Both the position numbers and the translations under genes were made by a program. A stretch of DNA of 64,000 nucleotides from Cellulomonas sp. Leaf334. Lineage in GTDB: Bacteria > Actinomycetota > Actinomycetes > Actinomycetales > Cellulomonadaceae. Below the pieces are notes generated by a model. That model was not told the origin of the DNA and did not search any database. It worked only from the letters and a program-made list of their open reading frames with translations. Of the stretch, positions 21,949 through 36,855 are shown one piece after another. The DNA lies in the NCBI RefSeq assembly GCF_001424195.1, contig NZ_LMOO01000001.1, forward strand, positions 62,001 through 126,000. The letters run 5' to 3'. Position 1 is the stretch's first letter. The number at the start of each line of letters is the position of its first letter.

Positions 21949-22685
21949 TCGCCGGGCCGGGGGTCAGCGTCTCGGTGGTCATCCCCGCCCGCGACGACGC
22001 GGTCGCCCTGGCGGAGTGCCTCGCGCGGCTCCGCCGGCAGACGGTCGCGCCGTACGAGGTGCTGGTCGTCGACAACGGCTCGACGGACGACACCGCGGCG
22101 GTCGCAGCGTCGTGGGGTGCGCGGGTGGTGGCGGAGCCGCGGGTCGGCATCCCCGCCGCGGCAGCGACCGGGTACGACCACGCGCGCGGCGACGTGATCG
22201 CCCGGCTCGACGCGGACTCCCGTCCGGACGAGCGGTGGGTGGAGCGCATCGTGGACTGCATGCTCGCGGACCCGCGGCTCGACGCCGTCTCGGGCACCGG
22301 GCAGTTCTTCGACCTCCCGGTGGCCCTGCGGGCCGGCGTCTCGGGGGTCTACCTGGGTGCGTACTACCTCCTCGCGCACCTCGCCCTCGGGCACACCGCG
22401 CTGTGGGGCTCGTCGATGGCGGTGCGCCGCGAGGCGTGGCTCGCCGTCCGCTCCCGGGTGAGCCGGGACGACCCCGAGGTGCACGACGACCTCGACCTCG
22501 CGTTCGCCCTCGGACCCGGGCGGCGGATCCGGTACGACCCGTCGCTGCGCGTGGGGGTGTCGGCACGGTCCCTGCGTGGGCACGCCCAGCGGGTGCGTCG
22601 CTTCGACCGGGCGTGGCGCACGCTGCGCGTCAACTGGCGGGTTGCGCCGCCCTGGGACCGGTGGCGGGCACGGTTGGCGCGCTGA
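21945..22685 (+). CDS. Glycosyltransferase family 2
   Basis: 246 aa from a GTG overlapping the previous stop. VSVVIPARDD at the N-terminus, LVVDNGSTDDTAAVA (about 38-52) and the DxD-like ARLDADSRPD (about 86-95) are the nucleotide-sugar motifs of GT-A family 2. No membrane helices, so probably a peripheral cytoplasmic enzyme. Its 3' end overlaps the convergent GNAT gene by 56 bases. The acceptor is unknown; its pairing with a diiron/CDGSH set is common in actinobacteria. Confidence 0.87.
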   Translation: MIAGPGVSVSVVIPARDDAVALAECLARLRRQTVAPYEVLVVDNGSTDDTAAVAASWGARVVAEPRVGIPAAAATGYDHARGDVIARLDADSRPDERWVERIVDCMLADPRLDAVSGTGQFFDLPVALRAGVSGVYLGAYYLLAHLALGHTALWGSSMAVRREAWLAVRSRVSRDDPEVHDDLDLAFALGPGRRIRYDPSLRVGVSARSLRGHAQRVRRFDRAWRTLRVNWRVAPPWDRWRARLAR

Positions 22686-23154
22686 GCGTCAGCCGGTAGA
22701 AGACGCTGTGCGGGTCGAGGACGTAGTCGGCGAACGGGGGGCTCTCGACGAAGCCGGCGCGCTCGTACAGGCGGCGGGCGGGGGCGAAGTAGCCCTCGGT
22801 GCCGGTCTCGAGGTGGACGGTGCCGATGCCCCGGGCCGCTGCGGCGCCGAGCACGTGCGCGAGCATCGCGGCGCCGACGCCCTGCCCGCGGGACGCGGCG
22901 GTGGTCCGCATCGACTTGAGCTCGCCGTCGGCCGGCCCGAGCTCCTTGAGCGCCGCGCACCCGAGCAGCACGCCGGTGCCGTCGCGGGCGGTCCAGAACG
23001 TGATGCCCGGCGCCGCGAGCGCCGACGGGTCGAGGGCGTGCACGGACTCGGCGGGCGAGGTCGCGTACATGTCCGAGAGGTGCTCGCCGAGGAGGTCCAG
23101 CACGTCGGGGGCGGTCGGGTCGTCGATGGCGATCGTCACGGTCACGGTGCTCAT
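22630..23154 (-). CDS. GNAT family N-acetyltransferase
   Basis: 174 aa. The acetyl-CoA loop is SMRTTAASRGQGVGAAML (about 79-97), with the family's R/Q-x-x-G-x-G/A in RGQGVG. YERAGF sits near 129-134. YVLDPHSVFYRL close to the C-terminus resembles the PhnO/YedL-type group. The sequence GTVHLETGTEGYFAPARRLY supports an amino-acid or aminoglycoside-like small acceptor. It is divergent from the riboswitch-controlled operon. Confidence 0.87.
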   Translation of the reverse strand: MSTVTVTIAIDDPTAPDVLDLLGEHLSDMYATSPAESVHALDPSALAAPGITFWTARDGTGVLLGCAALKELGPADGELKSMRTTAASRGQGVGAAMLAHVLGAAAARGIGTVHLETGTEGYFAPARRLYERAGFVESPPFADYVLDPHSVFYRLTLSAPTVPATGPRAAQPAS

Positions 23155-23210
23155 TCTTCCTCAGCGGGCGGGATGTCCCGTCCCATCATCTGGACTTTCC
23201 CCTCGGATCA

Positions 23211-23239
23211 TTGACTCGCTCCTCGTTTATGTCTACTTT
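23211..23239 (+). promoter_or_regulatory. Housekeeping-type promoter of the SAM-IV operon
   Basis: TTGACT (23211-23216), 17 bases, TACTTT (23234-23239). Close to the sigma-70 consensus and unusually A/T-rich for this DNA. Initiation about 7 bases later would start the transcript just before the first pairing strand of the riboswitch at 23252, which strongly supports the call. Confidence 0.75.
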
Positions 23240-23251
23240 CCCGACCTGTTA

Positions 23252-23400
23252 GGTCATGAATTCCAGCGACAAGCCCCGGCTCGCTGGGTGGCAACCCTCC
23301 TGCGTGTGGGGTGCCCCGGGTGACGACCTGGTCCTGTGCGAGCACCCGCTCGTGCCCGACAACGACGCAGCGCCCGCCCGGCGGGCACGAAGGGACGCAC
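23252..23400 (+). promoter_or_regulatory. SAM-IV riboswitch
   Basis: The core 23252-23328 follows the SAM-IV order. GGTC (23252) pairs with GACC (23325-23328) as P1. CCAGCGA and TCGCTGG form a stem enclosing CAAGCCCCGGC. Then come GGCAACCCTCC and GTGGGGTGCCCCGGGTGA, which are almost letter-for-letter those of mycobacterial SAM-IV. A distal GAGC/GCTC hairpin and a GC-rich 3' region complete it. The class binds S-adenosylmethionine and lowers expression of sulfur genes. Here it leads into the monooxygenase/transporter run beginning at 23644. Confidence 0.92.
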
Positions 23401-23401
23401 G

Positions 23402-23506
23402 ATGAGCACGGACGGACAGCCCGCGGCGATCGCCGACGGCCTCTCTCGCGTGTCCTCCTGCTGTCCCGGCGCCGGCTCCGGCGCGCTCAGCACCTGGTGT
23501 TGCTGA
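23402..23506 (+). CDS. Putative poly-cysteine leader peptide (34 aa) downstream of the SAM-IV riboswitch
   Basis: It begins MSTDGQPAAIADG and carries Cys-Cys at residues 20-21 (VSSCCPG) and again as the last two residues (STWCC). GAAGGGA lies just upstream of the ATG as a possible ribosome-binding site. A perfect 7-bp stem (23469-23475 with 23478-23484) lies between the two doublets. The second doublet is inside an imperfect CAGCACC/GGTGTTGCTG fold. Ribosome stalling at Cys codons could therefore change folding. The regulatory role is inferred by analogy with mycobacterial poly-Cys attenuators. Confidence 0.65.
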   Translation: MSTDGQPAAIADGLSRVSSCCPGAGSGALSTWCC

Positions 23507-23643
23507 CCCGTCTCCTGGCCTGACCGGCCGCTGACGAGCCCCTGCGATCGACGGCTCCGCCGTCTCGCGCCCGCACCCCACGCACCGTCCGTCGCACCTC
23601 TGTGTGCGCGCGGCGCGTCCGCGACTCCTGAACGGACACCCCC

Positions 23644-24801
23644 ATGGCACACCCCACATCGTCCCCCCGGCCGCTGCACCTCGGCGTCGACCTCAGCGAC
23701 GCCGGAGCCCACCCCGCCGCCTGGCGCACCCACGGCTCCCAGGCCCAGCGACTCTTCGACGCCGAACGGCTCCAGCACCTGGTCGACACCGCCCAGCGCG
23801 GCACGCTCGACCTCGTCGTCATCGACGACTCCTTCTCGCTGCAGCCCACCCGCTCCACCACCCTGCGGGGCAGGCTCGACGCAGCTCTCGTCGCGGCGCG
23901 GCTGGCGCCCCGGTCGCGGGGCATCGGCCTGGTGCCGACCGTCGCGACGACGCACACCGAGCCGTTCCACGTGTCCAAGGCGATCGCGACGATCGACCAC
24001 GTCAGCGGCGGCCGTGCGGGCTGGCAGCTCGGCTGGTCCTCGGACGACGCCGACGCCGGCCACTTCGGCCGCGGGGCCGCGCTGTCCGAGGCAGCGGCCG
24101 TGGCCGAGGCCGAGGAGGCCGTCGAGGTCGTCTCTGCGCTCTGGGACAGCTGGGAGGACGACGCGGAGATCCGCGACCGGGAGACGCACCGCTACGTCGA
24201 CCGCGCGAAGCTCCACTACGTCGAGCACGACGGCGTGCACTTCGCGGTCAAGGGGCCGTCGATCACCCCGCGCCCCCCGCAGGGGCAGCCGCCGATCGTG
24301 GTGCGCGTCGGGTCCGACGAGTCGTTCGGCCTCGCCGCCCGGCACGCCGACCTGGTCCGGATCAGCGCCACCAGCCGCGACGAGGCGCTCGACCTGCGGC
24401 TGCGGTTGCGCGCCGCGGCCGCCGCGGCGGGCCGCGAGCCCGGTGACCTGCGGGTGCTCGTCGACGCGTTCGTCGTGACCGGGCCGGACCAGGCGAGCGC
24501 GCGTGCGCGCCTCGACCTGCTCACCGAGCTCGAGGGCGTCCGGTGGGACACCGACTCGCTCACCCACGTCGGCACCGCCCGCGAGCTGACCGACACGTTC
24601 CTGTCGTGGTGGGAGATCGGTGCCGTGGACGGGTTCGTCGTGCGGCCCTCCTCGCTCCACACCGACCTCGACGTGCTGGTCGACGGCGTCGTCCCGATGC
24701 TGCGCACCGCGCGGGCGTTCCGCGAGCACTACAACGGCCCCACGCTCCGCGACCAGCTGGGCCTGCGCAACCCGGCCAACCGCTACGCCGCGATCGCCTG
24801 A
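23644..24801 (+). CDS. LLM-class flavin-dependent monooxygenase
   Basis: 385 aa luciferase-like TIM-barrel. LHLGVDLSDAGAHPAAWR opens the barrel. VSKAIATIDHVSGGRAGWQLGW (about 107-128) is the family's 'hxSGGR..w' core, and LVVIDDSFSL and LAARHADLVRISA mark FMN-contact strands. It most resembles the nitrilotriacetate/pristinamycin-type subfamily. First structural gene after the riboswitch and leader peptide. Such enzymes use FMNH2 and O2 to cleave C-S or C-N bonds; the substrate is not predictable, but the regulation points to organosulfur. Confidence 0.87.
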   Translation: MAHPTSSPRPLHLGVDLSDAGAHPAAWRTHGSQAQRLFDAERLQHLVDTAQRGTLDLVVIDDSFSLQPTRSTTLRGRLDAALVAARLAPRSRGIGLVPTVATTHTEPFHVSKAIATIDHVSGGRAGWQLGWSSDDADAGHFGRGAALSEAAAVAEAEEAVEVVSALWDSWEDDAEIRDRETHRYVDRAKLHYVEHDGVHFAVKGPSITPRPPQGQPPIVVRVGSDESFGLAARHADLVRISATSRDEALDLRLRLRAAAAAAGREPGDLRVLVDAFVVTGPDQASARARLDLLTELEGVRWDTDSLTHVGTARELTDTFLSWWEIGAVDGFVVRPSSLHTDLDVLVDGVVPMLRTARAFREHYNGPTLRDQLGLRNPANRYAAIA

Positions 24802-24809
24802 GCCCCGCG

Positions 24810-26192
24810 ATGACCACCCCCCGCAAGCAGGTCCACCTCGGCGCACACTTCCCCGGCGTCAACAACACGACCGTCTGGAGCGACCCTCGCTCCGGGAGCC
24901 AGATCGACTTCGCGTCGTTCGAGCACCTCGCCCGTCGCGCGGAGGCCGCGCACCTCGACTTCTTCTTCCTCGCCGAGGGCCTGCGCCTGCGCGAGCACAA
25001 GGGGCAGATCCACGACCTCGACGTCGTCGGTCGGCCGGACACGCTGCCCGTGCTCGCGGCGCTCGCCGCGGTCACGGACCGGATCGGGCTGGCGGGCACG
25101 ATCAACACGACCTTCAACGAGCCGTGGGAGCTGGCCCGGCAGTTCGCGACGCTCGACCTCCTGTCCGGCGGTCGCGCGGCGTGGAACCTGGTGACCAGCT
25201 CCGACGCCTTCACCGGGGAGAACTTCCGTCGCGGCGGGTTCCTGCCGCACGAGCAGCGCTACGAGCGGGCGGCCGAGCTGGTCCAGGTCGCGCGGGCGCT
25301 GTGGGACTCCTGGGACGACGACGCGGTCGTCGCGCACGCCCGCACCGGGCAGTTCGTGCGGCCCGGGTCGGTGCGCGAGGTCCGGCACGAGGGACCGCAC
25401 TTCCAGGTGCGCGGGGAGTTCACCACGCCGCGCGGGCCCCAGGGGCACCCGGTGCTGTTCCAGGCCGGAGACTCGGCCGACGGGCGCGACTTCGCGGCGG
25501 CCACGGCCGACGTCGTCTTCTCGGCGCATTCCACGTTCGAGGCGGGCAAGGCGTTCTTCGCCGACGTGAAGGGCCGGCTCGCCGCTCACCGGCGGACGCC
25601 GGACCAGCTCCTGATCCTGCCCGCGACCACGGTCGTGCTCGGCGCGACCGCGCAGGAGGCGGCCGAGCGGTCCCACGAGATCCGGCTCCAGCAGGTGCCC
25701 GGGCCGACGGCGATCGCGTTCCTGGAGCAGGTCTGGGGTCGGGACCTGACCGACCACGACCCCGAAGGTCCGCTACCGCGGATCGAGCCTGACGTCGAGA
25801 ACCTCGACATCACGCGAGGGCGGGTGCGGCACGTCAAGGACCCGCGTGCGATCGCCGGTGCGTGGCGCGCGCAGGCCGACGCGAACGGCTGGTCGATCCG
25901 CCGGCTCGTCATCGAGGTGACGTCGCGCGGCGGGTTCGTCGGCACGGCCACGCAGGTCGCGGACGCCATCGACCGGCACGTCCAGGAGGACGCGTCCGAC
26001 GGGTTCATCCTCGTCCCGCACCTGACCCCCGCCGGCCTGGACGACGTGTTCGACCAGGTGGTCCCGCTGCTCCAGGAACGCGGCTCGTTCCGCACCGAGT
26101 ACGCCGGGACGACGCTCCGCGACCACCTCGGCCTGACCCGACCGGCACCCCGGAACACCCGCTCATACGCCGACCGTGCCCTCGTCGGCTGA
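24810..26192 (+). CDS. NtaA/DmoA family FMN-dependent monooxygenase (CmoJ/YtnJ-like)
   Basis: 460 aa. VHLGAHFPGVNNTTVWSDP, LDFFFLAEGLRLREH and LDLLSGGRAAWNLVTSSD are textbook NtaA/SnaA/DszA/DmoA motifs. The length fits the family (about 440-480). This group oxidises substrates such as nitrilotriacetate, dibenzothiophene sulfone and dimethyl sulfide. Bacillus YtnJ/CmoJ acts on N-acetylated S-alkyl-cysteine. It starts 8 bases after the previous stop. FMNH2 would come from the reductases at 40384-41489. Confidence 0.92.
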   Translation: MTTPRKQVHLGAHFPGVNNTTVWSDPRSGSQIDFASFEHLARRAEAAHLDFFFLAEGLRLREHKGQIHDLDVVGRPDTLPVLAALAAVTDRIGLAGTINTTFNEPWELARQFATLDLLSGGRAAWNLVTSSDAFTGENFRRGGFLPHEQRYERAAELVQVARALWDSWDDDAVVAHARTGQFVRPGSVREVRHEGPHFQVRGEFTTPRGPQGHPVLFQAGDSADGRDFAAATADVVFSAHSTFEAGKAFFADVKGRLAAHRRTPDQLLILPATTVVLGATAQEAAERSHEIRLQQVPGPTAIAFLEQVWGRDLTDHDPEGPLPRIEPDVENLDITRGRVRHVKDPRAIAGAWRAQADANGWSIRRLVIEVTSRGGFVGTATQVADAIDRHVQEDASDGFILVPHLTPAGLDDVFDQVVPLLQERGSFRTEYAGTTLRDHLGLTRPAPRNTRSYADRALVG

Positions 26193-26229: not shown

Positions 26230-27867
26230 ATGCTCCGCTCGACCCGTGCCCGGTCCGTGCTCCTGACCACCCTCGTCGTCCCCGGCCTCCTGCTGACCGC
26301 GTGCAGCTCCGGCGGTGCCCCGGCCGCGTCCCCGACGGCCGACCAGAGCGCGACCGCGACCCCCGGTGGCACGCTGCGGTTCGCCCTCGGCGCGTCACCG
26401 AGCGGCGTCGACCCCCAGCAGGTCGGCTCGAACGTCAGCATCTACATCGCCCGCCAGCTGGCGGACTCGCTGACCGACCAGGACACCGAGACCGGCGAGA
26501 TCGTGCCGTGGCTCGCGACGAGCTGGAAGGTCAGCGACGATCTGACCCGGTTCACGTTCCACCTGCGTGACGACGTGACGTTCTCTGACGGCACGCCCCT
26601 GACCGCGACGACCGTCAAGGCGAACTTCGACGCCCTCGTCGGCCCCCTCGCCGCCACGGCACCCCTGGCCGGGTCCTACCTCTCGGGCTACCAGGCCACG
26701 ACCGTCGACGACGAGCACACCGTCACGGTCGCTTTCGCGACGCCGAACGCGCAGTTCCTGCAGGCGACCTCCACGGTGTCGCTGGCGATCCTGTCCGACG
26801 CGACCGCGACGACGGACCCGGCGGCACGTCTCCAGGGCGAGGTCGTCGGATCGGGCCCGTTCGAGCTCGAGGAGTACACGCAGGACCAGGGGGCGACGAT
26901 CGTGCGCCGCGACGGGTACGCGTGGCCGTCGGACGTCTCCGAGAACCCCGGCGAGGCGTACCTCGACCAGATCGACTTCTCGATCGTGCCCGAGTCGGGC
27001 GTGCGGTCCGGCGGGCTGGCCTCCGACCAGTTCGACGCGGTCGGCGACGTGCTGCCGCAGGACGTGCCGCAGGTCGAGGGTTCGGGCGGTTCCGTGCTCA
27101 CCCGCACCAACCCGGGTGTCGCCTTCGTGCTCCAGCCGAACGTGAGCGCCGGTCCGCTGGCCGACCCTGACGTGCGCGCCGCCGTGCAGGTGGCGATCAA
27201 CCGCCAGGAGCTCGTGGACACGGTGCTCAGCGAGGCGTTCAAGCCCGCGACGAGCGTCCTGGCCAGCACGACGCCGGGCTATGTGGACCTCTCAGACGAG
27301 CTCGCGTTCGACCAGGACGGTGCCGCGGACGCGCTCGACGACGCCGGCTGGACGCTCGGTGCCGACGGGATCCGCGAGAAGGGCGGCGAGAAGCTGTCGT
27401 TCGACGTGGTGTACGCGCCGCTCTTCACCGGCAGCCAGGCCGTGCTGGAGCTCACGCAGCAGCAGCTCAAGGCCGTCGGGGTCGACCTCCAGGTCCGCCA
27501 GCAGACGCCCGCCGAGCAGCAGGCGGCTCTCGCAGCCGGTGACTACGACACGTACTACTACAACGTCACGCGCGCCGACGGCGACATCCTGCGCACACAG
27601 TTCTCCTCGAAGTTCCGCAACATCAACAAGCGACCGGCCGACACGGTCCTCGACCCGCTGCTCGACGAGCAGCTGGCGCAGGGCGACCCGGCGAAGCGGG
27701 CGGACGACCTGGCCACCGCGCAGCAGACCATCCTCGACGAGGGCCTGGCGATCCCGCTGTTCGAGCTCGCACAGTCCATCGGCGTCGGCCCCGACGTGCA
27801 CGGGCTCGCGTTCGACGCCTCGTCCCGGCTGCTGTTCCACGACACCTGGATCGGCGGCGACCGGTGA
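26230..27867 (+). CDS. ABC transporter substrate-binding lipoprotein, peptide/nickel/opine type (SBP_bac_5)
   Basis: 545 aa with a signal peptide ending in LLTAC (Cys near 21), then a Ser/Ala/Thr-rich linker. GGTLRFALGASPSGVDPQQ and IVPWLATSWKVSDDLTRFTF are the conserved N-terminal family 5 segments. ILDEGLAIPLFELAQ is near the end. It captures small peptides or similar solutes outside the membrane for the permeases that follow. It overlaps the first permease gene by 4 bases. In this setting the ligand may be a sulfur-containing peptide or conjugate. Confidence 0.9.
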   Translation: MLRSTRARSVLLTTLVVPGLLLTACSSGGAPAASPTADQSATATPGGTLRFALGASPSGVDPQQVGSNVSIYIARQLADSLTDQDTETGEIVPWLATSWKVSDDLTRFTFHLRDDVTFSDGTPLTATTVKANFDALVGPLAATAPLAGSYLSGYQATTVDDEHTVTVAFATPNAQFLQATSTVSLAILSDATATTDPAARLQGEVVGSGPFELEEYTQDQGATIVRRDGYAWPSDVSENPGEAYLDQIDFSIVPESGVRSGGLASDQFDAVGDVLPQDVPQVEGSGGSVLTRTNPGVAFVLQPNVSAGPLADPDVRAAVQVAINRQELVDTVLSEAFKPATSVLASTTPGYVDLSDELAFDQDGAADALDDAGWTLGADGIREKGGEKLSFDVVYAPLFTGSQAVLELTQQQLKAVGVDLQVRQQTPAEQQAALAAGDYDTYYYNVTRADGDILRTQFSSKFRNINKRPADTVLDPLLDEQLAQGDPAKRADDLATAQQTILDEGLAIPLFELAQSIGVGPDVHGLAFDASSRLLFHDTWIGGDR

Positions 27868-28811
27868 CGGGCTACGTCCTGCGCCGGCTCGGCGCCGCGG
27901 TCCTGGTGCTCTGGGCGGCGTTCACGGTCTCGTTCGCGGTGCTGTACCTGCTGCCCAGCGACCCGGTGAGCATCATGCTCGACGGGGCCAACCCGGGCGG
28001 CACCGTGGACCCGGAGCAGGTCGCGGAGCTGAGTGCCCGGTACGGGTTCGACCGCCCGCCGCTCGAGCAGTACGTCGTGCTGCTCGGGCGGGCGCTGACC
28101 GGTGACCTCGGTGTGTCGGTGACGTCCGGCGCCCCCGTGTCGCAGCTCCTCGCGGACGCGTTCCCGCAGACGCTGGCCCTGACCAGCTTCGCCCTCGGGA
28201 TCGCCTTGCTGCTCGGTGGGGCGATCGCCGCGGTCTCCTCCTGGTCGCGGTCCACCCGCCTGCGCGGGGCGCTGCTGGCGCTGCCTCCGCTGGGCGTCTC
28301 GATGCCCACGTTCTGGATCGGGCTGCTGCTCCTGCAGCTGTTCTCGTTCCGGCTCCCGCTGTTCCCGGCGGTCGGCAACCAGGGCTTCGGCAGCCTGGTG
28401 CTCCCGGCGGTCACGCTCGCCATCCCGCTGTCCGCGGTCATCGCGCAGGTACTGGCCCGGTCCATGCGGACCGCCTGGGACGCGCCCTACGTGGAGACCG
28501 CGCTGGCCAAGGGCGCCAGCCGGGGGCGGGTGCAGTGGCGGCACGTGACCCGCAACGCCGCGCTCCCGGCGCTGACGCTGCTGGGCATCGCGGTGGGCAA
28601 CCTGCTCGCCGGGGCCGTGGTCGTCGAGACGGTCTTCTCGCGGGCCGGGTTCGGCGGCCTCGTCGAGAAGGCGGTCCGCGCTCAGGACATCCCCGTGGTC
28701 CAGGGCGTCGTGGTCGTCGGCGCGCTCGTGTTCGTGGTCGTCAACCTCGTCGTCGACCTCGCCTACCCGGCGCTCGACCCCCGGATCGCCCGCACCCCGG
28801 CCACGGCCTGA
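27864..28811 (+). CDS. ABC transporter permease, DppB-like
   Basis: 315 aa from a GTG. Begins TGYVLRRLGAAVLVLWAAF, the standard first helix of DppB/OppB. The conserved LLPSDPV segment and EAA-like loop ETALAKGASRGRVQWRHVTRNAALP are present. About six helices. It partners with the DppC-like protein encoded 18 bases downstream. Confidence 0.92.
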   Translation: MTGYVLRRLGAAVLVLWAAFTVSFAVLYLLPSDPVSIMLDGANPGGTVDPEQVAELSARYGFDRPPLEQYVVLLGRALTGDLGVSVTSGAPVSQLLADAFPQTLALTSFALGIALLLGGAIAAVSSWSRSTRLRGALLALPPLGVSMPTFWIGLLLLQLFSFRLPLFPAVGNQGFGSLVLPAVTLAIPLSAVIAQVLARSMRTAWDAPYVETALAKGASRGRVQWRHVTRNAALPALTLLGIAVGNLLAGAVVVETVFSRAGFGGLVEKAVRAQDIPVVQGVVVVGALVFVVVNLVVDLAYPALDPRIARTPATA

Positions 28812-28829
28812 CGCAGGGAAGGAACCGTC

Positions 28830-29714
28830 ATGACAGTCGTCTCGCAGGCACCGACCGCCGTCGCCGCACCCAGCGTCGTCCTGGCACGTCCGGTACCCGG
28901 CCGCCGCCGACGCCACCCCCTGGCGACGCCCGGTGTGCTCGCATCGTTCGCGGTCGTGCTCGTCGTCCTCGGCTGGGCGCTCGTGCCCGGGCTGTTCACG
29001 GCGGCGGACCCGCTCGTGGGCGTCCCGGCCGACAAGCTGAGCGCGCCGAGCGCGGAGCACTGGTTCGGCACCGACAACCTGGGCCGCGACCTGTACGCCC
29101 GCACCGTGCACGGCACCAGCCTGTCGCTGCAGGCGGCGCTGCTGGCGCTCGGCCTCGGGCTGGTCGTGGGTGCCCTGGTGGGGCTCGTCGCCGGGTACCT
29201 CGGGGGAGCGGTCGACGCCGTGCTCATGCGGACGACCGACGTGCTGCTGGCGATCCCCGGCCTGCTGCTGTCGCTCGCGGTCGTCACGGCGCTCGGCTTC
29301 GGCACGCTGAAGGTCGCCATCGCGGTCGGGGTCGCGGAGGTGGCGACGTTCGCCCGCGTCATGCGCTCCGAGGTGCTCCGGGTGCGGACGACGACCTACG
29401 TCGAGGCCGCCGTCCTGGCCGGCGCGCGGCGTCCGGCGGTCCTCGCCCGGCACGTGCTGCCCAACGCCGCGGCGCCGATCCTGGTGCTCGCCACCGTGCA
29501 GCTCGGCGTGATCGTGCTCGCCGTGTCCTCGCTGAGCTTCCTCGGCTTCGGCGCCGTGCCGCCCACGCCCGAGTGGGGGTCGCTCGTCGCCGAAGGACGC
29601 AACTACCTGTCGGTGGCCTGGTGGTTCACCACGCTGCCGGGGCTGGTCATCGCCGCACTGGTCCTGGCTGCCAACCGGCTGGGTCGACTCCTCGAAGGGA
29701 GGGCGCACCGATGA
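28830..29714 (+). CDS. ABC transporter permease, DppC-like
   Basis: 294 aa. A long cytosolic N-terminus, then helices starting near residue 35. It contains AEHWFGTDNLGRDLYAR, the diagnostic DppC/OppC segment, and the loop YVEAAVLAGARRPAVLARHVLPN. The stop overlaps the ATPase start by 4 bases. Confidence 0.92.
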   Translation: MTVVSQAPTAVAAPSVVLARPVPGRRRRHPLATPGVLASFAVVLVVLGWALVPGLFTAADPLVGVPADKLSAPSAEHWFGTDNLGRDLYARTVHGTSLSLQAALLALGLGLVVGALVGLVAGYLGGAVDAVLMRTTDVLLAIPGLLLSLAVVTALGFGTLKVAIAVGVAEVATFARVMRSEVLRVRTTTYVEAAVLAGARRPAVLARHVLPNAAAPILVLATVQLGVIVLAVSSLSFLGFGAVPPTPEWGSLVAEGRNYLSVAWWFTTLPGLVIAALVLAANRLGRLLEGRAHR

Positions 29715-31360
29715 GCGCCCCGACAACCCCCGTCCTGCAGGTCCGCGACCTGGTCGTCGAGTACGAGGTCCATCGCAGCAGCAGTGAGCGGGTCCAGGCC
29801 GTGCGCGGGGTGAGCTTCGACGTGCACGCCGGCGAGGCCGTCGCGCTCGTCGGCGAGTCCGGCTCCGGCAAGTCGACGACCGCGCACGCGGTGGTCGGCC
29901 TCCTGCCCGGCGGTGGCCGGGTGGTGGGGGGCAGCGTCCGCCTGCACGGCGGGGAGCTCGTCGGCCTGGGCGCCAAGGCGTGGCAGCAGGTGCGGGGCGC
30001 GCGGATCGGCCTGGTCCCGCAGGACCCGGGCATCGCACTCAACCCGGTGACCCGGATCGGCGACCAGGTGGCGGAGGTGCTGCGCATCCACGGCCGGGTG
30101 CGCCGGGCCGCCGCCGCTCAGCAGGCGGTCGAGATCCTGCGGTCCGTCGGGCTGAGCGACCCGGAAGCCCGTGCCCGCCAGTACCCGCACGAGCTGTCCG
30201 GCGGCATGCGGCAGCGCGTCCTCATCGGCATCGCGCTCGCGCTCGAACCCGCCCTGGTGATCGCCGACGAGCCCACCAGCGCGCTCGACGTCACGGTGCA
30301 GCGCCGGGTGCTCGACCTGCTCGACGACCTCACGTCGCGCACCGGATCGGCCGTCCTGTTCATCACGCACGACCTGGCGGTCGCGGCCGACCGCGCCGAC
30401 CGTGTGGTGGTGATGAAGGACGGCGAGATCGTCGAGCAGGGACTGACGGCTCAGGTGCTCGGTGCGCCGCGCCACCCGTACACGCGGTCCCTGCTGGCCG
30501 CCGCGCCGCAGCTGTCGGTCCGCGAGCGGGTCGCGGACCCGGCACCGCCCGTCGGCGAGACGCCGCTCCTCGACGTCCTGTCCGTCAGCAAGGCGTTCCG
30601 GCTCCCGGGCGGACGCACCGTGCAGGCCGTCGACGACGTCAGCGTGTCGATCCCGCGCGGTGGAGCGTTCGGGCTCGTCGGGGAGTCCGGCTCGGGCAAG
30701 TCGACCGTCGCGCGGCTCGTGCTGCAGCTGACCTCGCCGGACTCCGGGACCGTGCTCCTCGACGGTGCCCCCGTGTCCGACGCCGCCGGCCGCGCGGTCC
30801 TGCGTCGCCGGTCGCAGCTGGTGCACCAGAACCCGTTCGCGTCGCTGGACCCCCGGTTCACGGTCGCGAAGATCATCGACGAGCCCCTGCGGTCCCACCG
30901 CGTGGGCTCCCGGTCGCAGCGGCGGGACCGGGTCGACGAGCTGCTGGAGCAGGTCGCTCTCGGTGCGGCGTACGCGACCCGGCGGCCCGGCGAGCTCTCC
31001 GGTGGGCAGCGGCAGCGGGTCGCGATCGCCCGGGCGCTCGCCCTCGAGCCCGACCTGCTCGTCCTCGACGAGCCGACCAGCGCCCTCGACGTCTCGGTCC
31101 AGGCCCAGATCCTCGCGCTGCTCGACCGGCTGCGGCGCGAGCGCGACCTGACCTACCTGTTCATCTCCCACGACCTCGCGGTCGTGCGTCAGGTGGCCGA
31201 CCGGGTCGGGGTGCTGCACGACGGCCGGCTGGTCGAGGTCGGACCGACCGCCGACGTGTTCGACGACCCGCACGACCCGTACACCGCCGAGCTGGTCGGC
31301 GCGATCCCCGGCCACCGTGCCGACGTCTTCACCGACACGCTCGAGAGGAGCACCCGATGA
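29711..31360 (+). CDS. Fused dipeptide ABC transporter ATPase (DppD-DppF in one chain)
   Basis: 549 aa containing two complete nucleotide-binding domains. Domain 1: GESGSGKSTTAH (about 52-63), [31 protein letters not shown]. Domain 2: GESGSGKSTVAR (about 324-335), [30 protein letters not shown]. This equals one DppD plus one DppF, so a single gene completes the transporter. Both domains look catalytically intact. Confidence 0.94.
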   Translation: MSAPTTPVLQVRDLVVEYEVHRSSSERVQAVRGVSFDVHAGEAVALVGESGSGKSTTAHAVVGLLPGGGRVVGGSVRLHGGELVGLGAKAWQQVRGARIGLVPQDPGIALNPVTRIGDQVAEVLRIHGRVRRAAAAQQAVEILRSVGLSDPEARARQYPHELSGGMRQRVLIGIALALEPALVIADEPTSALDVTVQRRVLDLLDDLTSRTGSAVLFITHDLAVAADRADRVVVMKDGEIVEQGLTAQVLGAPRHPYTRSLLAAAPQLSVRERVADPAPPVGETPLLDVLSVSKAFRLPGGRTVQAVDDVSVSIPRGGAFGLVGESGSGKSTVARLVLQLTSPDSGTVLLDGAPVSDAAGRAVLRRRSQLVHQNPFASLDPRFTVAKIIDEPLRSHRVGSRSQRRDRVDELLEQVALGAAYATRRPGELSGGQRQRVAIARALALEPDLLVLDEPTSALDVSVQAQILALLDRLRRERDLTYLFISHDLAVVRQVADRVGVLHDGRLVEVGPTADVFDDPHDPYTAELVGAIPGHRADVFTDTLERSTR

Positions 31361-32187
31361 CCACGCTCGCCATCGACCCGACCGCCGACCTGCTGCGCTG
31401 GCGCAGCGACCGCGAGGAGACGCTGCGCCAGCCGCACGGCTGGCTCAGCCTGGTCGGCCTGTACGCGCTGACCGCGACCCCGCGCCCGGTCCCGGGGGTT
31501 CCCGGCCGGTGGTCGACCGACGGCGCCGACGCGCTGGTCGAGACCGACGCCGCCGACGGCGTGACCGACCCCCAGTCGCGCGAAGCGCTCGTGGGCGTCT
31601 GGCGACGGACGGTCAGGGAGGGCCGGTCGACGCTCGTCGCGGCGTACGTGCCGGCGGGCCGCGACGACGAGGACCGCCTCGTCGTCGAGCTGCTCCGCCG
31701 CACCGGTCGGCTGTACCTGCGCGTCCGCGACCCGCGCGCCGCAGCGCGCACCGGCTTCGACGGAGTCCCGACGCACCCGTACGACCCGTCGTGGGTCCTC
31801 GACGTCCCCGTGCGCTGGTACGACGAGCCCGTCGAGGTGACGGTCGGCGCGGCGCAGCACGGGCTCGTCCACCACGTCCGGCTGGTCGGGGAGATCGACG
31901 TCGAGCGCGACGGTGTGCGGCACACGCTGCGACTGTCCGGTGGGCACGTCCCACGATCGGTCGCCGTCCTGTTCAGCGACGAGGCCGAGGACCTGGCGCC
32001 CTGGCGCATGCTGACCATCGACGTCGCCGACCGCAGCGCAGGCCCGCTGAGGATCGACCTCAACCGGACCCTCAACCTGCCGTACGCGTTCAGCGACTCC
32101 GGCACGTGCCCGGCACCCGTCGAGGGCAACCATCTGCCGTTCGCCGTGTCGGTGGGGGAGCGCGACCCGCGCGGGAGCGCGTCGTGA
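31357..32187 (+). CDS. DUF1684 domain protein
   Basis: 276 aa, coupled by a 4-base overlap to the ATPase and to the GNAT gene. The start LLRWRSDREETLRQPHGWLSLVGLYAL and the late segment RIDLNRTLNLPYAFSDSGTCPAPVEGN are classic DUF1684. The C-x-P-P-like Cys in GTCPAP and the invariant N-x-L pattern are retained. No reaction is established for the family; its position inside a sulfur-regulated operon is a clue worth testing. Confidence 0.88.
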   Translation: MTTLAIDPTADLLRWRSDREETLRQPHGWLSLVGLYALTATPRPVPGVPGRWSTDGADALVETDAADGVTDPQSREALVGVWRRTVREGRSTLVAAYVPAGRDDEDRLVVELLRRTGRLYLRVRDPRAAARTGFDGVPTHPYDPSWVLDVPVRWYDEPVEVTVGAAQHGLVHHVRLVGEIDVERDGVRHTLRLSGGHVPRSVAVLFSDEAEDLAPWRMLTIDVADRSAGPLRIDLNRTLNLPYAFSDSGTCPAPVEGNHLPFAVSVGERDPRGSAS

Positions 32188-32747
32188 CGACCTCGACCCT
32201 GACGGTCCGCTGGACCGACCTCGCCGACCCGCTGGTGCAGCCGCTGCTGGACGAGCTGGCCGACGAGTACGCCACCCGGTATCAGGGCATCCTGGCCGTC
32301 GACCAGATCCGTGCCGAGCTGGAGCACTACCCGGCGGCGGAGTTCGCGGCGCCCGACGGTGCGCTCGTCCTGCTGCTCGAGGCCGGCGTCCCGGTCGCAG
32401 GCGGCGCGTTCCGTCGACGGATGGAGCCGGAGCTCGGTGACGCCGACCGCCGCCCGCGCGCCGAGGGGCGCGACGAGGCCGGCCTGCCGACCGTCCCCAC
32501 AGCCGAGCTCAAGCGCATCTGGACGCACCACGCGCACCGTCGTCGGGGCCTGGCCGCGCGCGTCGTCGCCGAGCTGGAGCAGCGCGCCTCCGACCTCGGC
32601 TACCCGCGGCTGTACCTGACGACCGGGCCGCGGCAGCCGGAGGCCGTCGGCCTCTACCTGCGCGCCGGCTACACGCCCCTGTTCGACCCGGCGGCCGAGG
32701 CGACCGGGCCGCTCCCGTTCGAGAAGTGGCTGGGGGCGACGTCGTGA
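32184..32747 (+). CDS. GNAT family N-acetyltransferase (possible SnaA-like role)
   Basis: 187 aa from a GTG. The acetyl-CoA site is [21 protein letters not shown] (about 113-133), and the C-terminal part [20 protein letters not shown] is typical of GNAT. In Bacillus the ytmI operon puts a GNAT (SnaA) with a TcyJKLMN amino-acid transporter and LLM monooxygenases to process S-modified cysteines by N-acetylation. The same gene classes surround this one, so an equivalent acetylation step is plausible but unproven. Confidence 0.83.
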
Positions 32748-33832
32748 GCGTCTTCCAGGACGAGTCGCGCCTGCTGGCACCGCCGCCGGTCCAGCCCGAG
32801 CGCGGGGGCGACGCCGCGACGCTCGCGTGGCTGCGCGTCGTGCCCACCCGGCACCCGGGGCGCTGGCTCGCCACCGCCGTGGTCGCGGTGCTGCTCGCGA
32901 TGGTCGTGAGCTCGTTGGTGACCAACGACCGGTGGCAGTGGTCCGTCGTGGCGCAGTACCTGACCTGGCCGTCGGTTCTCACGGGGTTGTGGGGCACCCT
33001 GCGGCTCACCTTCGCCGCCGCCGTCATCGGGTTCGGGCTGGGCACGGTGCTCGCCCTGATGCGGCTGTCGCGCTCGCCGTTGCTGCGCAGCGTCGCGTGG
33101 GGCTACACCTGGGTGTTCCGGTCGGTGCCGCTGATCCTGCAGCTGCTGCTCTGGTACAACCTCGCGTACCTGTACCCGGAGATCTCGTTCGGCATCCCGT
33201 TCGGCCCGGCGTTCACCGAGGTGGACACCCTGTCGATCGTCGGCAAGTTCGGCGCCGCGGTGCTCGGGCTCGGGCTCTCCCAGGCGGCGTACTCGGCCGA
33301 GATCGTCCGCGCGGGGATCCTCGGTGTCGACCAGGGCCAGCACGAGGCCGCCGCCGCGCTCGGGATCCCGCGCGCGCGCCAGCAGCTGCGCATCGTGCTC
33401 CCGCAGGCGATGCGGACGATCGTGCCGACGTCGATCAACGAGATCATCGGGCTGGTCAAGGGCACGTCGGTCGTCTACGTGCTGGCCTACGGCGAGCTCT
33501 TCTACACGGTCGGGGTCATCTACGGCCGCAACCTCAAGGTCGTCCCGCTGCTCATGGTCGCGGCGATCTGGTACCTGATCATCACGACGGTCCTCACCGT
33601 CGGGCAGTACTACCTGGAGCGCCACTACGCGAAGGGCGCCCTGCGCACGCTGCCCCCGACGCCGGTGCAGCGGCTGCGCTGGACCGCGGTCTCGCTGGTC
33701 AGCCGGGTCAGCGGCCGGCCGCTGCCCGCGAGCGTGCCCCCGGCCTACGCGGCGCGCTCCACCCTCGGTGGCCACCTGTTCCGGACGGGGTCGACAGTCC
33801 CGCCGCGCGACGACGTCGGGAGCGGGCCGTGA
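32744..33832 (+). CDS. Amino-acid ABC transporter permease (HisM/TcyL-like)
   Basis: 362 aa from a GTG. A cytosolic N-terminus of about 40 residues precedes five to six helices. [23 protein letters not shown] and [16 protein letters not shown] are the conserved polar amino-acid permease segments, with the EAA loop [23 protein letters not shown]. Longer than usual (about 220-300) because of both termini. It overlaps its neighbours by 4 bases each. Confidence 0.9.
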
Positions 33833-34593
33833 GCGCCGGCCTGGTCGAGGTGCACGGCGTGCACAAGAGCTACGGCACGCTCGAGGTGCTCGCGGGCATC
33901 GACCTCGTGGTGCAGCCGGGTGAGGTGACCGTCGTGATCGGCCCGTCGGGCTCCGGCAAGTCCACCCTGCTGCGCGTCATCAACCACCTGGAGCGGGTCG
34001 ACCGCGGGTTCGTCGCGGTCGGCGGGGAGGTCGTCGGCTACGAGCGTCGCGGCGACACCCTGCGCGAGCTGCGCGAGAAGGAGGTGCTCCGGCAGCGCAC
34101 CCGGATCGGCTTCGTGTTCCAGAGCTTCAACCTCTTCCCGCACCTGACCGTGCTCGAGAACCTCCTCGAGGCGCCCGTGCACGCGCAGGGCCGCCCGCGG
34201 CGCGAGGTCGAGGCCGAGGCGCGCGTGCTGCTCGAACGCGTCGGCCTGTCCGACAAGGCCGACGCCCGGCCCCGACAGCTGTCGGGCGGTCAGCAGCAGC
34301 GTGTCGCGATCGCCCGGGCGCTCGCCACGAAGCCCGAGGTCCTCCTGTTCGACGAGCCGACGTCCGCCCTCGACCCGGAGCTCGTGGGTGAGGTGCTCGA
34401 CGTCATCAAGGACCTCGCGCACAGCGGCACGACGCTGGTCGTCGTCACGCACGAGATGGGCTTCGCCCGGGAGCTGGCCGACACCGTCGTGTTCATGGAC
34501 GGCGGCCGGATCGTCGAGCAGGGGCCTCCCGCGCAGGTCCTCGACCACCCGCAGCAGGCCCGCACCCGCGCGTTCCTCGACAAGGTCCTCTGA
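33829..34593 (+). CDS. Amino-acid ABC transporter ATP-binding protein (GlnQ/TcyN-like)
   Basis: 254 aa from a GTG. Walker [13 protein letters not shown] (about 39-50), Q-loop [15 protein letters not shown], signature [16 protein letters not shown], Walker [16 protein letters not shown]-loop [12 protein letters not shown]. Every catalytic residue of the polar amino-acid importer class is present. Pairs with the permease and the binding protein on either side. Confidence 0.95.
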
Positions 34594-34617
34594 ACCACCC
34601 CACCCCGAAGAGAGAAG

Positions 34618-35622
34618 ATGATGTCCACCACCACCCGCTCGTCCCGCACCCGGCTGCTCGCCGCGCTCGTCCTGACCCCCTTGCTCGCTGGGCTCGCGGC
34701 GTGCTCCTCGAGCGCCGAGGCCGAGCCGGGTGGCGGTGACCTCCAGGAGGCGGCCAAGGCCGCCGGACTCACGGTCAACACCACCGCGGACCAGGACCGC
34801 ATCCGCACGACCGAGTCGGCCGAGGCGATCGCGCTCCTGCCGGCGGAGGTCAAGGAGAAGGGCACGCTCACGGTCGCCGTCAGCGCCTACGTGGCGCCGC
34901 TGGCGTTCCTGGCCGACGACGAGAAGACGCCGATCGGCAACGAGACCGACATCGCCCAGCTGGTGGCCGATGCGCTCGGTCTGGAGCTGAAGCACGAGGT
35001 CAAGGCGTGGGCCGACTGGCCGCTCGCCGTGCAGTCCGGCGCCGTCGACGCGGTGATCTCGAACGTGACGGTCACCGAGGAGCGCAAGGAGCTCTACGAC
35101 TTCTCGTCCTACCGCAACGACCAGCTCGGCTGGCTCGTGCGCGCCGACAACGACGACCTCACGGAGATCTCCGAGCCGAAGGACATCGCCGGCCTGACGG
35201 TCGCGGTGGGCTCGGGCACCAACCAGGAGAAGATCCTGCTCGCCTGGGACGAGGAGAACCGGGCGGCCGGGCTCGAGGCCGCCAAGGTCGAGTACTTCGA
35301 GAACGACGGCGACACGATCCTCGCGCTGCAGTCGGGTCGCATCGACGTCTCGTTCGGCCCGAACGCGACCGCTGCCTACAAGGCCGCCGTCTCGCCGGAG
35401 GACTTCAAGGTCATCGGCACGCTCAACGGCGGCTGGCCCGCGACCGCGCAGATCGCCGTCGGCACCCTCAAGGGCAACGGTCTGGCACCGGCCGTCACCG
35501 CGGCGCTCAACCACGCGTTCGAGGACGGCACCTACGCCGGGGTGCTGGAGCGCTGGGGCCTGCAGGACGAGGCCATCGACGCGTCCGAGCTGAACCCGCC
35601 CGGTCTGCCCAAGACGGACTGA
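34618..35622 (+). CDS. Amino-acid ABC transporter substrate-binding lipoprotein (SBP family 3)
   Basis: 334 aa with a signal peptide and lipobox LAAC (Cys near 29). KGTLTVAVSAYVAPLAFLADD and IGNETDIAQLVADALG followed by AVISNVTVTEERKELYDFSSY are family 3 segments. AGLTVAVGSGTNQEKIL forms part of the second lobe. A ribosome-binding site AGAGAAG precedes the ATG. The likely ligand is a modified amino acid; an organosulfur one is inferred from the operon. Confidence 0.9.
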   Translation: MMSTTTRSSRTRLLAALVLTPLLAGLAACSSSAEAEPGGGDLQEAAKAAGLTVNTTADQDRIRTTESAEAIALLPAEVKEKGTLTVAVSAYVAPLAFLADDEKTPIGNETDIAQLVADALGLELKHEVKAWADWPLAVQSGAVDAVISNVTVTEERKELYDFSSYRNDQLGWLVRADNDDLTEISEPKDIAGLTVAVGSGTNQEKILLAWDEENRAAGLEAAKVEYFENDGDTILALQSGRIDVSFGPNATAAYKAAVSPEDFKVIGTLNGGWPATAQIAVGTLKGNGLAPAVTAALNHAFEDGTYAGVLERWGLQDEAIDASELNPPGLPKTD

Positions 35623-35718: not shown

Positions 35719-36855
35719 ATGAGCGAGCACGTGGACCACGTCGTCGTGGGCGGCGGGGTCATGGGCGCCGCGGCCGCGTGGCAGCTGGCCCGGCGCGGAG
35801 CGCAGGTGGTGCTGCTCGAACGGTTCGGCCGCGGGCACACCTGGGGTGCGTCGCACGGCGCGTCCCGGATCTACCGGAACACCTACGCCCGCGCGGAGTA
35901 CCTCGACCTGGTGCAGGAGGCGTTCGACCTGTGGCGGGTGCTCGAGGACGAGGCGCCCGCGGTCGGGGAGCTGCTGACCATCACGGGCGGGGTCAGCCAG
36001 GGCTCGCTCGCGTCGCGCGAGGTGGCGGACGCGTTCGTCGAGCGGGGCATCCCGCACGAGTGGCTGTCCGCCGCCGACGCGCACGCACGCTGGCCGGGCC
36101 TCGCGTTCGAGGGTGACGTCCTGCACGAGACGAGCACCGCCGGACGGCTGTACGCCGACCGTGCGGTCGAGGCGTTCCTCCAGGCCGCGACCGGTGCGGG
36201 CGCGCGCGTGCTGCACGAGACCCCGGTGCGGGCGGTCGAGCAGACGGGCGACGGCGTGCGGGTGGTCACCGACACGGGCACGTGGCACGCGACGAGCGCC
36301 GTCGTGGCGGTCGGCGCCTGGACCTCCGGCCTGCTCGCCGGGATCCCCGAGCTCGCCGACCGGCTGGTGGTGACGCAGGAGCAGCCCGCGCACTTCGCGC
36401 TGCTCCCGGACGCACCCGTCGCCGACCTCTGGCCGTCGTTCACGCACGACCCGCCCGCACCGCACCCGTGGCCCAGCGGCGTCTACGGCCTGGCCACTCC
36501 CGGAGAGGGCATCAAGGTGGGCTTCCACGGCGTCGGCCCCCGGACCGACCCGGACCGACGGTCGTTCACCGCGGAGCCGGGACAGCTGCGGCAGCTGCGC
36601 GACTACGTGGACCGCTGGGTGCCCGGCGCAGACCCGGACCACCTCGTGCCGATCTCGTGCACGTACACGACCACGCCGGACCACGACTTCGTCCTCGACC
36701 GCCGCGGACGCGTCGTCGTCGCGGCCGGGTTCTCCGGGCACGGATTCAAGTTCGCCCCTGCCGTCGGACGCGTGCTGGCGGACCTCGCGGCCGAGCCGGC
36801 ATCTGTGCCGCACCCGGCCTTCGCCGCCGCCCGGCTCGCGGCCCTGCCCGCCTGA
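35719..36855 (+). CDS. SolA/sarcosine-oxidase-like FAD-dependent amine oxidoreductase
   Basis: 378 aa, with AGGAGG close to the ATG. Dinucleotide loop HVVVGGGVMGAAAAWQLARRG (about 7-27), then HGASRIYRN, the conserved monomeric sarcosine oxidase / N-methyltryptophan oxidase motif. A CTYTTTPDHDFVLDR segment near 315 contains the Cys that carries covalent FAD in this family (SCTYT). It oxidises secondary amines or amino acids to imines. It may dealkylate the imported amino acid. Confidence 0.88.
   Translation: MSEHVDHVVVGGGVMGAAAAWQLARRGAQVVLLERFGRGHTWGASHGASRIYRNTYARAEYLDLVQEAFDLWRVLEDEAPAVGELLTITGGVSQGSLASREVADAFVERGIPHEWLSAADAHARWPGLAFEGDVLHETSTAGRLYADRAVEAFLQAATGAGARVLHETPVRAVEQTGDGVRVVTDTGTWHATSAVVAVGAWTSGLLAGIPELADRLVVTQEQPAHFALLPDAPVADLWPSFTHDPPAPHPWPSGVYGLATPGEGIKVGFHGVGPRTDPDRRSFTAEPGQLRQLRDYVDRWVPGADPDHLVPISCTYTTTPDHDFVLDRRGRVVVAAGFSGHGFKFAPAVGRVLADLAAEPASVPHPAFAAARLAALPA

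Follow-up and report, generated by a model that had tools for sequence, protein, structure and literature searches.

The window, by which we mean the whole stretch of 64,000 nucleotides of Cellulomonas sp. Leaf334 analysed here, carries on its forward strand a leader made up of a SAM-IV riboswitch and a short upstream ORF (uORF), followed by a cluster of genes for FMN monooxygenases and ABC importers (Table 1). The first of the two monooxygenases is preceded by a weak Shine-Dalgarno (SD) sequence (GAACGGA at 23630) and scored 274.9 bits with TIGR03860, just under the NCBIfam cut-off of 279.7; the NCBIfam matches of the peptide/nickel-type importer were also below their cut-offs. The protein families fit the uptake and oxidation of organosulfur compounds, and we infer organosulfur scavenging as the probable role of the cluster, all genes of which are assumed to lie on one transcript.

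Table 1 Features of the leader and of the gene cluster behind it, in positions of the window
Feature	Position	Strand	Remarks
Likely promoter, TTGACT (23211-23216), 17-base spacer, TACTTT (23234-23239)	23211-23239	+	by eye
SAM-IV riboswitch aptamer (RF00634)	23252-23371	+	covariance match, recovered in a second search
Hairpin GCCCG-CCCGG-CGGGC, interval between aptamer and SD of the uORF	23372-23386	+	sequence
Shine-Dalgarno GAAGGGA of the uORF	23389-23395	+	identical in 8 aligned leaders
uORF, 34 codons and TGA stop	23402-23506	+	ATG at 23402, SD-led
Spacer from uORF stop to first enzyme gene, C-rich and G-poor	23507-23643	+	137 bases
First operon gene, luciferase-like FMN monooxygenase, NtaA/DmoA-like	23644-24801	+	PF00296, E 4.6e-35
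Second NtaA/DmoA-family FMN monooxygenase	24810-26192	+	TIGR03860, 426 bits (cut-off 279.7)
Peptide/nickel-type ABC importer: SBP family 5 (26230), permeases (27864, 28830), fused double ATPase (29711-31360)	26230-31360	+	
DUF1684 protein and GNAT acetyltransferase	31357-32747	+	Pfam
Amino-acid-type ABC importer (permease, ATPase, SBP family 3)	32726-35622	+	Pfam
FAD-dependent (DAO-type) oxidoreductase, candidate member of the transcript	35719-36855	+	Pfam

An earlier, sequence-only reading of the locus had placed the core of a SAM-IV riboswitch at 23252-23400. A covariance search with RF00634 bore this out with a full-length match (model positions 1-116 of 116) at 23252-23371, with a score of 78.5 bits (gathering score 38) and an E-value of 2.7e-12. 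It is the sole Rfam match above the gathering threshold within the window. The same genome has one further SAM-IV, located 5' of a gene of the aminotransferase cluster, whose sister gene in L007 is Pfam Aminotran_5.

The likely promoter adjoins the aptamer, its end lying 12 bases upstream, and the pattern TTGAC(t/a/g)-17-TACTTT is kept, by eye, in all eight leaders of the window's group. This site was absent from the output of a consensus promoter scan, which reported instead a minus-strand site over the same bases; the latter (TAGACA-17-AATGAT, 23207-23235) is promoter-like, overlaps the likely riboswitch promoter and faces a divergent ORF at 22630-23154. About 55 bases 5' of the aptamer, CATCTGGACT (23187-23196) is identical in 8/8 leaders of the group and is possibly a regulator site. 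In the hairpin that follows the aptamer, the 3' arm overlaps CGGGCACGA (23382-23390), for which TCGTGCCCG (23350-23358), part of the last helix of the aptamer, is a possible alternative pairing partner. The hairpin is kept across the aligned leaders, except for loop bases and one C-to-T change in L082 and L086, and we infer only a possible regulatory role for it.

The peptide encoded by the uORF is MSTDGQPAAIADGLSRVSSCCPGAGSGALSTWCC. Its Cys codons are numbers 20 and 21 (TGC TGT) and 33 and 34 (TGT TGC, directly followed by the TGA stop), which agrees with the two Cys-Cys doublets, one of them terminal, that had been read from the sequence. The 7-bp hairpin that had been drawn between the doublets (23469-23484) did not hold up: its loop would have only 2 bases, 6 bp with a 4-base loop being realistic, and it is not conserved. 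Among the eight closest leaders, the hairpin segment is missing from L082 and L086 and part of it from L083, and all three retain four Cys codons. The hairpin was therefore rejected as an essential part of the leader, since it is absent in the relatives L082 and L086.

Comparison of the ORF codon by codon across relatives, which had been proposed as a check, revealed indels that keep the frame, retention of most Cys columns and a peptide that otherwise drifts. In the alignment of the eight leaders of the window's group the uORFs differ in length by 9, 12 and 21 bases, each divisible by three, and the exceptions to the conserved Cys columns are one C-to-G and one C-to-W replacement. In the window's species one of the four usual Cys residues has become Trp and the final Arg has become Cys, so that the terminal doublet is preserved. 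The dN/dS ratio was 0.78 in the window's group, 0.29-0.60 in four other groups and 2.9 in one pair; five of the six groups thus lie at 0.3-0.8, and constraint on the whole peptide is weak. The uORF is thus short, looks translated and has Cys near its stop, with conservation concentrated on the Cys codons by both column comparison and dN/dS, as in the cysteine leader peptides of actinobacteria. A profile search of the window uORF gave no match to any NCBIfam leader-peptide model, including NF042934, NF042933 and NF042936.

Recurrence of this arrangement was examined in the genus, where SAM-IV was found in 76 of 81 genomes. The set comprised 113 oriented leaders, the window's own locus being counted twice, and was clustered by downstream gene: aminotransferase class-V (38), luciferase-like monooxygenase (31 rows, 30 of them distinct since L002 and the window row are one locus), NADPH-dependent FMN reductase (17), ABC permease (10), SDF symporter (5) and small groups, with names taken from Pfam on one or more members each. 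SD-led ORFs of 8-70 codons, selected with no cysteine criterion, were searched for in 54 leaders (30 monooxygenase, 10 permease and 14 mixed). Exactly one was present in 28 of the 30 monooxygenase leaders and none in the other two (L071, L108), in which the enzyme starts at +142 or +145, directly behind SAM-IV. These two stand outside the 28, and two leaders on cut contigs with Cys uORFs and no gene picked (L067, L080) are uncounted. At least two Cys in the last 12 residues occurred in all 28 uORFs versus 145 of the 3825 dinucleotide-shuffled leaders with a usable ORF (3.8%; 8400 shuffles in total). Cys codons made up 90/825 of the codons in frame (0.109), against 33/797 (0.041) and 9/797 (0.011) in the other frames. 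The Cys-rich ends are therefore beyond chance. By eye the 28 uORFs form about 11 families with unrelated N-termini, and therefore do not represent 28 independent events.

A functional Cys-rich micro-protein, binding metal, active in redox or modified as a peptide, would account for the Cys-Cys pairs and for the conserved translation frame. Across lineages, however, the uORFs have almost only Cys near the stop in common and vary from 15 to 50 codons; the dN/dS values of the window's group and of the one pair, together with the lack of a family match for the window peptide, also speak against this explanation, which we regard as very improbable.

The permease leaders provided an internal control: 9 of the 10 have SD-led mini-ORFs of 9-23 codons with 0 Cys (L040, L043, L045, L048, L050, L051, L054, L063, L078), and 8 of these 9 overlap the picked permease start by 4 bases (ATGA type) and are probably coupling ORFs. 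Such ORFs lend some weight to a different explanation of the monooxygenase leaders, namely that the uORF relays SAM-IV control to the distant gene by holding ribosomes on the leader, with Cys codons that do not respond to cysteine. The available passages on the Mycobacterium tuberculosis (Mtb) Mbox, where a riboswitch-controlled uORF is described (PMC12810186), and on the interplay of a B12 riboswitch with a uORF (PMC11260477) point the same way. A relay of this kind leaves unexplained, however, the Cys-rich ends in 28/28 uORFs, the frame-specific Cys excess, the codon bias described below and the existence of leaders with the Cys uORF only, and the 137 bases between the window uORF and the enzyme start are beyond simple overlap coupling. 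We consider it unlikely.

Small ORFs with Cys codons were also noted elsewhere among these leaders. The five SDF-family symporter leaders (L019, L034, L110, L111, L112; assignment by Pfam on L110, TcyP-like by eye) have GTG or ATG mini-ORFs behind SAM-IV, of which four carry a C.C pair (RCSCAAF, RCSCAAP, RCRCTTA) and the one in L111 a single Cys (RCLHV). In the aminotransferase class-V genes directly behind SAM-IV the N-terminus is variable, with a Cys within the first 34 residues in 34 of 38, by eye mostly at about codon 8-13; the same is seen in other families (L170, L172, L174). A search of the window's own genome for further Cys uORFs with the motif TGYTGYCGCTGA, which is blind to uORFs with other endings, gave 12 places compared with 11 for the reversed control pattern. 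One of them, L263, can be read as a 20-codon GTG ORF ending in SCCR and was rejected, having no Shine-Dalgarno match and being intragenic by eye; the other places were not short ORFs with a start.

The Cys codons of the uORFs are strongly biased. In the 28 uORFs UGU and UGC were used 72:18 times, against 31:236 in the first genes, which were identified in 109 of the 113 leaders (p 2e-33). The ratio was 26:5 (p 7e-17) with one uORF per family, 72:16 in 25 further named loci, and 19:12 in the class-wide set described below against 44:189 in its genes. In most bacteria a single tRNA reads both Cys codons. The bias could slow decoding or reflect a need at the RNA level, and is a lead, open to testing, on how codons are chosen for sensing amino acids. 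An alternative explanation is that an RNA motif (CUGUCGCUGA-like) is conserved, with Cys coding as a by-product, as suggested by the many uORFs that end in TGT-CGC-TGA and by the retention of TGT rather than TGC. Against it, the contexts and spacing of the Cys codons vary (CCPGACCR, CRCRP..SCR, CCHCSCR, WCC), some are TGC, the window uORF itself ends in TGG-TGT-TGC-TGA, and TGYTGYCGCTGA is not enriched in its own genome by the counts given above; we give this possibility very little credence.

Reckoned from the aptamer start, the uORFs begin at a median of +150 and the enzymes behind them at a median of +396, while genes directly behind SAM-IV begin at medians of +153 (38 aminotransferase class-V) and +125 (17 FMN reductase). 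The uORF therefore sits where the first gene would otherwise start, as expected of a uORF under riboswitch control.

The first operon gene is 86-96% identical to its closest named relatives, in Cellulomonas strains such as C. humilata, C. terrae and C. xylanilytica. A scan of named genomes for the monooxygenase yielded 51 loci, of which 50 were placed in a tree and L159, with 78 bases of upstream DNA, was omitted. Both modules were assigned to 36 loci, the SAM-IV of 11 of these being taken from the genome search. They belong to Cellulomonas, Cellulosimicrobium, Oerskovia, Xylanimonas, Promicromonospora and Krasilnikoviella, to which are added Sanguibacter hominis, a MAG and a record labelled Sphaerisporangium. 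The last (L123, Sphaerisporangium cinnabarinum) is nested among Cellulosimicrobium in the tree and is probably mislabelled or contaminated. The uORF has at least two Cys in 35 of the 36 and one in Krasilnikoviella (L149). Together with two Luteimicrobium loci, which likewise keep SAM-IV and a uORF with one Cys only, this last case is a counterpoint to cysteine sensing. Five loci (two Sanguibacter, three Cellulomonas) have a Cys uORF with no SAM-IV even at E-values up to 1, for example C. edaphi, whose uORF ends in ...SCCRCCR. SAM-IV stands directly before the enzyme in L151 (87.7 bits) and in L152 (31.4 bits, below the cut-off), three loci have it further upstream with intervening genes, and two have neither module. 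With 28 of 30 in the genus, SAM-IV with a Cys uORF is the common leader of the monooxygenase operon among the leaders examined; it turns up sporadically elsewhere in the class and is not unique to the window.

The best monooxygenase tree has 15 open branches among its 47 inner ones and eight long rows; on it two changes are required for the Cys-only state and one for the SAM-only state, and well-supported branches force one each. Separate gain or loss of the modules, at least once each, is therefore possible. Their occurrence alone in relatives is compatible with two parallel controls, SAM-IV acting on elongation or stability and the uORF sensing cysteine independently, with no serial licensing, and folding of the leaders revealed no expression platform. 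This explanation leaves aside, however, that the uORF starts at the position of the genes directly behind SAM-IV, and no intrinsic terminator was found in 23100-23750; in our estimate it is improbable.

Beyond the genus, 114 of the 197 class genomes sampled, from 51 of 91 genera, had SAM-IV. From these, 90 SAM-IV leaders were assembled, 30 automatically and 60 chosen by hand, the latter mostly second hits, and the set is therefore not random; the core of L190 was not located in it. In 13 of the 90, distributed over 9 families, an SD-led uORF begins between +125 and +200 and has Cys near its end, where a Cys in the last 8 residues and a picked gene at least 200 bases away were required; L250 (MCCCRMQQVTGA) fails the tail rule and is uncounted. 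Several of these uORFs carry an RRHVDL..SS..C motif. When 10 SAM-IV-linked peptides (seven class uORFs and one each from Cellulomonas, Cellulosimicrobium and Promicromonospora) were compared with NF042934, 'putative leader peptide', four scored above the cut-off, three below, and three, all of the CCR type, gave no match. The class Cys leaders precede, among others, genes for SBP family 5 or 3, for luciferase-like proteins and for FMN-reductase proteins. In further leaders, mini-ORFs of only 9-15 codons (MCCCCRMTRR, MCIRRMCCR) stand upstream of genes for enzymes of the Cys/Met PLP type (Pfam on L220); being so short, they are weaker evidence.

Coupling to SAM-IV as a rule for the RRHVDL-type family was rejected, as most NF042934 members among the matches listed stand alone; one of these matches (G126:C16) lies, by eye, within 300 bases 3' of a listed SAM-IV on the same strand. 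Back-to-back pairs of SAM-IV on opposite strands also occur among the matches listed, at G049:C1:3953835-3954279 and in G005:C15, G055:C3, G012:C35, G030:C14 and G126:C16.

That one transcript might read SAM (S-adenosylmethionine) through SAM-IV and cysteine through the leader ORF before any enzyme is made, as the sequence-only reading had suggested, is supported by comparison because the Cys codons are conserved, the indels keep the frame, the uORF begins at the start position controlled by SAM-IV, and the modules are separable. The reading we prefer, with a probability of roughly 60%, is a serial two-input leader: SAM-IV would license translation of the uORF, and stalling at the Cys codons would release the operon. 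SAM-IV would set the loading of ribosomes on the uORF, as is presumed for enzyme genes directly behind SAM-IV. When Cys-tRNA is short, the ribosome would linger on the Cys codons before the stop and the operon would be expressed; when cysteine is plentiful, the ribosome would complete the uORF and expression of the operon would stay low. The likely outcome would be an AND gate, with low SAM and low cysteine together giving two flavin monooxygenases and two importers for organic sulfur. Binding of SAM, the direction of its effect and responsiveness to cysteine are predictions from the sequence comparison. Stops occur in all three frames after the uORF end (23504-23534; offsets 0, 17 and 28, by eye) and would form a trap for ribosomes slipping at the Cys codons.

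The final step would take one of two routes, Rho-dependent termination within the C-rich spacer or a masked start of the downstream gene. The absence of an intrinsic terminator from 23100-23750 sets the leader apart from a classical transcription attenuator. The C/G ratio of the spacer is 1.69 in the window, with a median of 1.80 in the 28 leaders versus 1.31 in genes and 1.19 in uORFs; a C-rich, G-poor spacer would suit Rho and is a weak sign of Rho sites. Masking was examined by partition-function folding of the 28 leaders with a masked ribosome footprint, and accessibility of the main-gene SD was 0.41 with a ribosome on the last Cys codon versus 0.43 without it. Complementarity between uORF tail and SD, computed with RNAduplex against 200 shuffles per leader, had a mean z of about 0 in the same 28, L089 alone lying at 1% of its shuffles. 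Anti-SD pairing by the uORF tail was rejected as a general mechanism, there being no excess over shuffled tails. Strong pairing of the uORF with the start region is predicted in the sister leaders L074 and L095, and in the window over three bases.

Folding was also carried out with the closing helix of the aptamer forced, in a program whose model leaves pseudoknots and ligand energy outside. The predicted accessibility of the uORF SD rose in 22 of 27 leaders, and that of genes directly behind SAM-IV rose in 30 of the 40 that were analysable (of 66). The sign is the same for direct genes and for uORFs, and folding can therefore neither give the direction of the SAM effect nor alone indicate repression of the uORF.

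A wider reading joins these results. The riboswitch would license a ribosome that senses an amino acid; Actinobacteria would have placed SAM-IV repeatedly before unrelated cysteine leader peptides; organosulfur would be scavenged only when SAM and cysteine are both short; and the rare UGU codon would have been selected at the sensing positions, sharpening the cysteine response. Taken as a whole we hold this reading tentatively, at somewhat less than an even chance. Riboswitches and leader-peptide attenuators are usually regarded as alternative devices. In these leaders the two seem to be arranged one after the other, at the start codon normally used by the riboswitch's gene, in a genus and its relatives and now and then across the class. 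This opens a direct test of whether a first RNA sensor can gate a second and raises the question why both the end product (SAM) and the precursor (cysteine) of one pathway should be read. Cys-only and SAM-only leaders of the same gene are natural single-input controls.

Two signals are also combined at one locus in the mgtL/mgtA leader of Salmonella, one of them via a leader ORF, and the ubiG operon of Clostridium acetobutylicum is under S-box/T-box control with sensors for SAM and Cys. These systems use other sensors in another arrangement, and neither is known to include a SAM-IV or a cysteine leader peptide. SAM-IV itself has been placed before an O-acetylhomoserine sulfhydrylase in M. avium (PMC3774663), a cysteine desulfurase in S. 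lividans (PMC8079986) and an aminotransferase class V protein in S. clavuligerus (PMC8269248). In these cases, as far as the available passages go, a single enzyme gene stands behind the riboswitch, whereas here the nearest start codon is that of the cysteine uORF. In the titles, abstract beginnings and passages that made up the literature searched, no description of SAM-IV combined with a cysteine leader peptide was found.

The second module resembles the actinobacterial cysteine leader peptides of Seliverstov 2005 (PMC1262725), where, in the part available, Rho was offered as a weak suggestion for Mycobacterium: in both there is a short ORF with Cys near its stop, before a sulfur operon (in our case a presumed one), and no conserved terminator. 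By title, the cysteine attenuators of mycobacteria reported by Canestrari 2020 (cited in PMC9031893, PMC9094748 and PMC13236596) are leaderless; unlike them, the window uORF is SD-led and begins about 150 bases into the RNA behind the riboswitch, reckoned from the aptamer start rather than from a mapped transcript start. The uORFC-8-2 motif, in the passages at hand, has a uORF carrying a tandem pair of Cys codons, which its authors interpret as ribosome-mediated attenuation and in which UGC dominates with some UGU (PMC8632094). That motif stands before a tRNA synthetase gene and has a terminator-like U run, with no riboswitch mentioned in those passages, whereas UGU dominates here.

Among the sources at hand, the nearest described system is the Mtb Mbox leader (Mbox-pe20), in which the riboswitch acts on translation of a uORF and Rho termination is reported (PMC12810186). 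In the B12 riboswitches of Mycobacterium (PMC11260477), too, it is translation of a uORF that is acted on, and in both, as in the leaders described here, the uORF lies between aptamer and main gene. The several TGC/TGT codons of the poorly conserved Mbox uORF1 are treated by the authors as rare codons (PMC12810186), and the available text of neither paper contains the word cysteine or presents such codons as a cysteine sensor. Each of the two modules is known; their combination appears to be new as far as the literature searched goes, and is recurrent and conserved by sequence comparison.
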